Shown here piece after piece: positions 51,031 through 52,710 of a stretch of 64,000 nt of DNA. Each line of letters starts with the position of its first letter. Within the stretch, counting starts at the first letter, position 1. Made by a program: the position numbers and the translations under genes. This DNA comes from Dechloromonas hankyongensis (GTDB lineage: Bacteria > Pseudomonadota > Gammaproteobacteria > Burkholderiales > Rhodocyclaceae), in the NCBI RefSeq assembly GCF_022012295.1, contig NZ_JAKLTN010000002.1, positions 868,001-932,000 on the forward strand, read 5' to 3'. The notes beneath the pieces were generated by a model, which did not search any database, was not told the origin of the DNA, and saw nothing but the letters and a program-made list of their open reading frames with translations.

Positions 51031-51789
51031 TCAGTTCTTGCGGCCGTGCCCGGTTTTGGCCTGGGTCGACGCCAGGATTCCACGCAGGATATTGATCTCA
51101 TCCCGTTCCAGACGAACTCGCCCGAACAAGCGGCGTAATTTGGGCAGCAAGCGCCCCGGCTGTTCCGGATTGAAGAAACCGGTATCGGTCATCACCCGCT
51201 CGAGATGGGTGTAGAGCCCCTCCACCTCGTCGTTGGTGGCGGCCGGTGAGGCGAACGGCGTCGTAAGTTGCGCCGTCGGCGGCAGGCCGGCAAAGGCGGC
51301 CATGCGGCACTCGTAGCACAGGACCTGCACGGCCGAGCCCAGGTTCAGCGAACTGAAATCCGGGTTGGTCGGTATCGTCACCGCCGCCTGGCAATGCAGG
51401 ATTTCCTCGTTGCTCAGGCCGACCGTTTCGTTGCCGAACACCAGGGCCACCTCGCCTTCCGCGGCTTCGGCCAGCAGGCGCGCCACGGTTTCGCGGGGCG
51501 CCCCCAGCACCGGCCCGATGTCGCGCTGGCGGGCCGATAGCGCAACGGCAAACGAGGCCCCGGCCAGCGCTTCGCCCAAGCTGCGCACCACCGTGGCATT
51601 GGCCAGCACATCCACAGCCCCGGTCGCCCGCGTATCGGCCTCCGGATCGGGAAACTGCTTGGGCTCGACCAGATAGAGCCGGGACAAGCCCATGGTCTTC
51701 ATCGCCCGCGCCGCAGCGCCGATGTTGCCAGGGTGGCTCGGCCGGCAAAGCACGACTCTGATACGGGAAAGCAGGAGTTCCGGGTTCAT
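51031..51789 (-). CDS. trmJ: tRNA (cytidine/uridine-2'-O-)-methyltransferase TrmJ
   Basis: SPOUT enzyme that methylates the ribose of nucleotide 32 in tRNA. The 252-residue protein starts with RVVLCRPSHPGNIGAAARAMKTMG (motif 1), has FGNETVGLSNEEI (motif 2) and PDFSSLNLGSAVQVLCYE (motif 3), and a C-terminal helical extension typical of TrmJ. It is divergent from suhB; the trmJ/suhB pair is conserved in many proteobacteria. Confidence 0.95.
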   Translation of the reverse strand: MNPELLLSRIRVVLCRPSHPGNIGAAARAMKTMGLSRLYLVEPKQFPDPEADTRATGAVDVLANATVVRSLGEALAGASFAVALSARQRDIGPVLGAPRETVARLLAEAAEGEVALVFGNETVGLSNEEILHCQAAVTIPTNPDFSSLNLGSAVQVLCYECRMAAFAGLPPTAQLTTPFASPAATNDEVEGLYTHLERVMTDTGFFNPEQPGRLLPKLRRLFGRVRLERDEINILRGILASTQAKTGHGRKN

Positions 51790-51793
51790 GGTG

Positions 51794-51799
51794 TAAAAT
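51794..51799 (+). promoter_or_regulatory. Probable -10 element of suhB
   Basis: TGTAAAATTCG contains TAAAAT at a suitable place to start a suhB leader of about 50 nt. The matching -35 is weak. Confidence 0.45.
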
Positions 51800-51818
51800 T
51801 CGTTCTTTCAAAATATTT

Positions 51819-51838
51819 CGGGTGGCCTTGGCCGCCCG
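51819..51838 (+). other. Hairpin in the suhB leader
   Basis: CGGGTGGC (51819-51826) pairs with GCCGCCCG (51831-51838) with one wobble, loop CTTG, directly upstream of the boxA. Confidence 0.5.
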
Positions 51839-51841
51839 TTA

Positions 51842-51850
51842 GCTCTTTAA
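51842..51850 (+). promoter_or_regulatory. boxA (Nus factor site) in the suhB leader, in place of a ribosome binding site
   Basis: GCTCTTTAA is identical to the core of the bacterial rRNA boxA and lies 5-13 bases before the suhB ATG, where a Shine-Dalgarno would be; no other ribosome binding site is visible. Autoregulation of suhB through a boxA has been described in enteric bacteria. Confidence 0.7.
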
Positions 51851-51854
51851 GCCC

Positions 51855-52664
51855 ATGCATCCAGCTCTGAATATCGCCATCAAGGCGGCGCGCCGCGCCG
51901 GCCAGATCATCAACCGTGCCTCCAACGACATCGACCTGCTCAAGGTTGCGTCGAAGCAGCCGAACGATTTCGTTACCGAGGTCGACAAGGCCGCCGAGAA
52001 AGCCATCATCGAAACCCTGCAGGAGGCTTATCCGGGCTACGGCATTCTAGCAGAGGAGTCCGGCGTCACTGCCGGCAAGGGCGCGCAGGACGAGTACCAG
52101 TGGATCATCGATCCGCTCGATGGCACCACCAACTTCATCCACGGCATGCCGCAATACGCCGTCTCCATCGCCCTCGCCAAAGCGGGCATCGTCGAGCAGG
52201 CCGTCGTTTTCGACCCCAACCGCAATGAACTGTTCACCGCCAGCAAGGGCGCCGGCGCCTTCCTGAACGAGCGCCGCATCCGCGTTTCCCGCCGCACCCG
52301 GCTGGGCGAAGCGCTGCTCGGCACCGGCTTCCCCTACCGCGAATTCGACAAGATCGACCTCTACCTGGCGATCTTCAAGGAACTGGCCGAGAAGACCGCC
52401 GGCCAGCGCCGTCCGGGTGCTGCCTCGCTCGACCTGGCCTATGTCGCCTGCGGCCGTTACGACGGCTTCTGGGAATTCGGCCTGTCGCCGTGGGACATGG
52501 CGGCCGGTGCGCTGCTCATTTCCGAAGCCGGCGGCCTGGTCAGCGACCTGCGCGGCGATGCGAACTACCTGGAAACCGGCAACGTCATCGCCGGCACGCC
52601 GAAGGTCTTCGCACCGCTGCTCAAACTGGTCGAAGGGCATTTGCCGGAGTCGGTCCGCGGCTGA
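51855..52664 (+). CDS. suhB: Inositol-1-monophosphatase / Nus-complex protein SuhB
   Basis: Lithium-sensitive inositol monophosphatase fold; in E. coli SuhB is also part of the boxA antitermination complex on rRNA. The 269-residue protein has [10 protein letters not shown], the metal motif [16 protein letters not shown] (Asp-Pro-x-Asp-Gly-Thr) and a C-terminal [17 protein letters not shown]. The leader contains a hairpin and a perfect boxA instead of a normal ribosome binding site. A terminator follows the gene. Confidence 0.96.
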
Positions 52665-52684: not shown

Positions 52685-52710
52685 AAAAAAGCGCCTGCGG
52701 GCGCTTTTTT
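52685..52710 (+). terminator. Rho-independent terminator after suhB, bidirectional
   Basis: AAAAAAGCGCC (52685-52695) pairs with GGCGCTTTTTT (52700-52710), loop TGCG. It also lies downstream of the convergent small gene 52773-52976. Confidence 0.92.

Follow-up and report, generated by a model that had tools for sequence, protein, structure and literature searches.

suhB is the gene for a ribosomal-RNA transcription factor. In the window, by which we mean the whole 64,000-nt stretch of Dechloromonas hankyongensis DNA analysed here, the nonamer GCTCTTTAA lies directly upstream of suhB, raising the question of whether it is a boxA that places suhB under the control of the Nus factors or a boxA-like sequence with another role. 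In Escherichia coli, Nus factors at a boxA in the suhB leader repress translation, Rho then terminates the message, and polymerase downstream is increased in boxA, nusB and nusE mutants (PMC5725501); the repression that the original prediction had cited thus has an experimental precedent. In the same study, a scan with the pattern GYTCTTTAANA, which covered gammaproteobacteria only, placed a boxA ahead of suhB in 34 of 55 genera (Baniulyte et al. 2017, PMC5725501). Our search of open-licence papers found no account of a suhB boxA in betaproteobacteria and, judged by titles, no study of a suhB leader in Burkholderia or other betaproteobacteria. The analysis presented here makes it fairly probable that GCTCTTTAA is a boxA in the suhB mRNA leader, through which the Nus complex would exert negative feedback like that in E. 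coli, and that it does so from the ribosome-binding position.

The suhB gene and its leader

The best solved relatives of the protein encoded downstream of the element bear the chain name Nus factor SuhB (9j90, E 3.6e-97), which agrees with the earlier statement that SuhB is a member of the Nus complex. The protein is identical to E. coli SuhB at 134 of 267 aligned residues, and its score against NF008027, a gammaproteobacterial NCBIfam equivalog model, is 291 bits, under the cut-off of 332. Because the window protein and E. coli SuhB align from residue 1 of both, the suhB start codon at 51855 is very probably right. Moreover, the genome contains a frame of 491 residues that carries two NusA C-terminal repeats, the second of which is the SuhB contact in E. 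coli (PMC6614801). Two SuhB residues were mutated together in E. coli to break the NusA contact; in the window protein, L254 is kept and K251 is replaced by alanine. We counted the Nus-type SuhB, the NusA-repeat frame, the hairpin covariation described below and the E. coli precedent in favour of feedback, and the retention of only L254 of the two contact residues against it.

The divergent arrangement of trmJ and suhB is common to the window and E. coli (L316). As the 65 bases between the two starts (51790-51854) are non-coding, conservation in this leader is not a by-product of either protein. The TAAAAT hexamer was seen by eye in most suhB leaders of close relatives, and was not reported in the window by a strict promoter scan. 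The stem-loop 3' of suhB is weak, with one found and 1.4 expected from shuffles.

Table 1. Coordinates of the features at the suhB locus, in window positions
Feature	Position	Strand	Basis
boxA-like nonamer GCTCTTTAA	51842..51850	+	Shine-Dalgarno position of the suhB leader; letters, conservation, enrichment over permuted motifs
GC hairpin of 8 bp (51819-51826 with 51831-51838, loop 51827-51830)	51819..51838	+	predicted fold; covariation
suhB, 269 aa, inositol monophosphatase family, Nus factor SuhB	51855..52664	+	homology, structure matches, alignment
trmJ, divergent neighbour of suhB	51031..51789	-	TIGR00050 above cut-off; TrmJ equivalog model below its cut-off
TAAAAT, -10-like hexamer of the probable (inferred) suhB promoter	51794..51799	+	by eye
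Terminator-like stem-loop 3' of suhB	52685..52710	.	scan reports - strand, nearly symmetrical

Rechecking confirmed that the nonamer lies 5-13 bases ahead of the suhB ATG, with four nucleotides (GCCC) in between, and that it has no second exact copy in the window, where shuffles predict 0.17. The window 11-mer is GCTCTTTAAGC, and with its C at position 11 it misses the published pattern by one base. The description of the element as a perfect boxA is therefore accurate over nine nucleotides, which are those of the rRNA boxA, and fails at position 11 of the published 11-nt pattern.

The noted lack of a Shine-Dalgarno (SD) sequence before suhB was confirmed: pairing the final 20 nt with the anti-SD gives a duplex energy of +0.2 kcal/mol, compared with -5.5 kcal/mol for the E. 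coli suhB leader. Of the leaders that carry a proximal boxA, 1 of 18 contains an SD four-mer; the figure is 5 of 18 where the boxA is farther away and 18 of 88 where there is none. Because SD-free suhB starts are this common (70 of the 88 leaders without a boxA), the absence of an SD is by itself no sign that a boxA has replaced it, and the claim of a replacement was not supported.

Two features of an autoregulated leader of the E. coli type were found, namely a suhB orthologue downstream of the boxA-like site and a GYTCTTTAA core less than 50 nt from the suhB start; a third, a boxA upstream of the SD, was not, because the boxA is in the SD position. As the 11-nt pattern is missed, we classified the leader as a variant that would work like the E. 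coli type.

Comparison with the rRNA boxA of the same genome

In the genome itself, the 16S-23S spacer contains GCTCTTTAACAAA ahead of the 23S gene, and the boxA there is GCTCTTTAACAA. GCTCTTTAA is identical to its first nine bases, which we counted in favour of a boxA. The next two bases are GC at suhB and CA at the rRNA, where there is no translation. The 23S start was sought in 30 genomes and matched in 24, and among the 24 spacers read, GYTCTTTAA was present in 20, each time followed by CAA or AAA, with no match in the other four, one of which is without a 23S anchor. By contrast, among the 46 suhB leaders with an exact motif (best 80 of 220 loci, window included), position 10 is G in 40 and position 11 is C in 40. 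We counted GC instead of CA or AA at these positions against the boxA reading.

Two further observations were counted on the same side. In the Azonexus hydrophilus group the suhB site reads GCTCTTTCATAA, yet the rRNA boxA in one such genome is a normal GTTCTTTAACAA; and covariation between the suhB site and the rRNA boxA at position 2, looked for in a few genomes, was not found, with T in the rRNA boxA and C in the suhB site in two of them (G112, G147).

The 4.1-Mb genome contains six copies of GCTCTTTAA: one in the rRNA spacer, one before suhB, three within long open frames (L002, L004, L007) and one within a frame as judged by eye (L003). This distribution was counted for the boxA reading. 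Separately, avoidance of the word was considered, since its reversed form occurs 84 times, and was rejected because the window shuffles scale to about 11 copies per 4.1 Mb.

Conservation in close relatives

The original prediction had made conservation of the nine bases in close relatives its first refutation test, and the element passed it. We used the best 80 of 220 loci by protein similarity, the named ones being mostly Dechloromonas and Azonexus, and split them into the 62 closest and 18 more distant loci. These names place the window in that group (Rhodocyclales), in line with the original prediction. Within 75 nt of the suhB ATG, exact GYTCTTTAA was present in 45 of the 62 closest loci and in none of the 18 more distant ones. 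A second count took the window together with 60 loci out of the 62 closest (best 80 of 220); L050 (contig edge) and L054 (leader missing) were left out here and scored as misses among the 62, and the distant loci (L100-L117), included in the 80-locus count, were left out once seen to lack the motif. In these 61 leaders, the exact motif occurs in 46, ending 4, 3, 2 and 1 nt before the ATG in 27, 16, 2 and 1 leaders, respectively, and GYTCTTT lies 3-9 nt ahead of the ATG in 58. Both the exact matches and the wider retention of GYTCTTT were counted for the boxA reading.

The remaining leaders vary. Six Azonexus hydrophilus-like leaders (L052, L059, L061, L074, L078, L079) have GCTCTTTCATAAGCC-ATG in place of GCTCTTTAAGCC, and two others scored as misses (L096, L097) have little that is recognisable. 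In L054, trmJ-like sequence runs straight into CTC-ATG, possibly owing to an assembly join in a metagenome-assembled genome. Thauera has ATTCTTTAAC upstream of suhB; in L175, a genome of that kind, the distance to the ATG is 15 nt. In the window's family, the suhB leaders of Zoogloea, Sulfuritalea and Methyloversatilis contain no GYTCTTTA, which was counted against feedback.

The product of rho is the factor opposed by the Nus complex. In the same genome, an exact GTTCTTTAA lies 18 nt before the rho ATG (L256:1501-1509; G000:C8:1305885-1305893), after a short GC hairpin, GGGCACTCGCCC. We fetched 56 rho loci, dropped two and searched a 60-nt range in the 54 usable leaders; a boxA-like site was present in 1 of 54, that of the genome itself, and the second genome read from the genus (L259) lacks it. 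A second conserved target at rho was therefore rejected. The rho site does show that single matches can be accidental, and it lends something to the idea that the suhB element is likewise a chance match kept through relatedness alone. We consider this extremely unlikely: 45 of the 62 closest loci (best 80 of 220) keep the exact motif while the hairpin loop and spacer vary, and there is independent enrichment in other families, described below; together these two results largely refute it.

boxA-like sites before suhB across the order

Sampling 150 genomes across the order gave a SuhB in 147. From 137 leaders, 13 were dropped as the protein match did not begin at the start codon, leaving 124, of which 71 are from the window's family and 53 from others; the own-family sample leans to close relatives (the 30 best loci and roughly one leader per additional genus on the list). 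With at most one mismatch to GYTCTTTAA within 60 nt of the start, the motif was present in 21 of 71 own-family leaders and 15 of 53 others, representing 15 of 43 other families. Over 300 letter-permuted motifs, the mean was 0.79 matches in the own family and 0.83 in the others; the sole permutation to reach the real counts was the motif itself, and its reverse, complement and reverse complement each had 0 or 1 match per leader set. We counted the matches in other families, the near-zero permuted motifs and the single match in rho leaders for the boxA reading.

The distance to the ATG is 10-44 nt in the other families and at most 8 nt in 18 of the 21 own-family matches. Frequent forms in other families are GTTCCTTAA, GCTCATTAA and GTTCTTTAT. 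Several leaders (L196, L201, L207, L194, L217, L140 and others) carry altered boxA forms (GYTCCTTAA, GCTCATTAA), compared with the GYTCTTTAA of the order's rRNA spacers.

On a SuhB tree built by a quick method from 77 hand-picked rows (30 with a proximal boxA, 4 with a distal one, 43 without a one-mismatch boxA), the proximal label needs nine changes, and none of 500 shuffles gave so low a number. The proximal-boxA label is thus clustered on the tree, but with 33 of the 70 inner branches open this is not enough to show a single origin; the implausibly long E. coli branch was disregarded. In total, we conclude from these leaders that a boxA-like site ahead of suhB is a widespread feature of the order and that it was found next to the ATG in part of the window's family only. 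The term "ancient" in the original prediction may apply to a boxA before suhB and does not extend to the ribosome-site geometry.

These data also bear on a different reading, in which the element is a U-rich, SD-free ribosome entry site contacted by S1 that promotes translation, binds no Nus factor and resembles boxA by chance. The lack of an SD before suhB, the location exactly at the initiation site, bases 10-11 unlike those of the rRNA boxA and the frequency of SD-free suhB starts in the sample are all compatible with such a site. A generic pyrimidine tract, however, should not preserve the order GYTCTTTAA, and permuted motifs are near zero; in the other families a distance of 10-44 nt takes the motif out of the SD position, and the SD-free suhB starts of Zoogloea and Methyloversatilis do without such a tract. 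We therefore regard a ribosome entry site as rather unlikely.

A covarying hairpin before the element

The GC hairpin said to lie directly before the boxA is found in the predicted fold, ending 3 nt upstream of the nonamer, and is supported by compensatory changes. Covariation was scored in 33 of 54 distinct leaders, 21 having been omitted beforehand to keep one spacing. In these 33 leaders, 95.5% of cells are paired, four of the eight pairs are changed on both sides, and 0 of 500 shuffles reach the covariation score; when the partner is slid, 28-52% are paired. Eight of the 12 unpaired cells fall at one pair. The overall stability of the 81-nt stretch with the hairpin is not unusual (z -0.65). 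In other genera, longer or shifted hairpins were seen before suhB by eye. An intrinsic terminator was rejected for this hairpin, as no T run follows it and the terminator scan was silent there. An Accumulibacter locus (L110) and one of another genus (L161) have a GC hairpin before suhB and no boxA, suggesting that the hairpin may have a separate role.

In rRNA leaders, the order of the elements is hairpin, then boxA. The same order before suhB would suit a boxA that loads an antitermination complex and helps transcription through suhB, a positive effect as at rRNA, with no repression. Such a role is very unlikely, since a bound boxA 4 nt from the ATG must hinder initiation and the E. coli suhB boxA represses and favours Rho-dependent termination (PMC5725501).

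Discussion

We conclude, from comparison of sequences, that the element is real and conserved, and is most likely a boxA feeding back on suhB. In the model that we favour, NusB/NusE, with SuhB, NusA and NusG, would bind the suhB leader boxA when present beyond what rRNA boxA takes up; the bound boxA would prevent the start of suhB translation, and SuhB would drop. The window boxA lies in what we take to be the region covered by a 30S subunit, and binding there should also exclude the subunit directly. The hairpin probably holds the boxA single-stranded and in place. For the window suhB, binding, repression, competition with the ribosome, the role of the hairpin and the promoter are inferred.

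The nearest known system is the suhB leader of E. coli and Salmonella, which has in common with the window the gene, a boxA core in the leader and the divergent trmJ (PMC5725501). It differs in the distance from the end of the boxA to the ATG, which is 19 nt there and 4 nt in the window, and in having a real SD downstream of its boxA, where the window has no SD but a hairpin preceding the boxA; the bases at positions 10-11 are different too. The "same logic" of the original prediction stands as far as a conserved boxA-like element at suhB is concerned, but the E. coli boxA is not over the initiation region. In E. coli, repression survives up to 100 nt inserted between boxA and SD and a T7 transcript escapes it, so that occlusion was judged insufficient there, and a polymerase-held loop was proposed (PMC5725501). 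We counted the insufficiency of occlusion in E. coli against our model. Control of N at lambda nutL likewise involves a Nus-factor leader site that represses translation of a member of the complex, but, unlike the window site, it lies about 200 bp from the gene and involves the phage N protein (PMC5725501).

A second comparison is with ribosomal proteins, whose part in the complex is NusE, that is, ribosomal protein S10. Autogenous ribosomal-protein leaders block ribosome binding. There, as proposed here, a part of the ribosome-assembly machinery would act on the start site of its own mRNA; those leaders differ in using a mimic of folded rRNA at a ribosomal-protein gene, whereas the window has a short linear site at a gene for a non-ribosomal protein. 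It is conceivable, and we propose this only tentatively, that in this Rhodocyclales lineage the boxA has become the ribosome-loading site itself, with its nine bases contested by the 30S subunit and the NusB/S10 (NusE) dimer. Free NusB-S10 would then set suhB translation directly, possibly without the transcribing polymerase needed in E. coli.

Most likely, then, this is a known kind of control, and what is new is the bacterial group and the geometry. The element points to Nus-factor control of suhB in betaproteobacteria, where the describing paper scanned gammaproteobacteria only (PMC5725501). It also offers a natural contrast: the boxA of E. coli can be separated from the SD without loss of repression, whereas here boxA and ribosome site coincide. 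Comparing the E. coli and window leaders would part direct occlusion from a mechanism that depends on the whole transcription complex.
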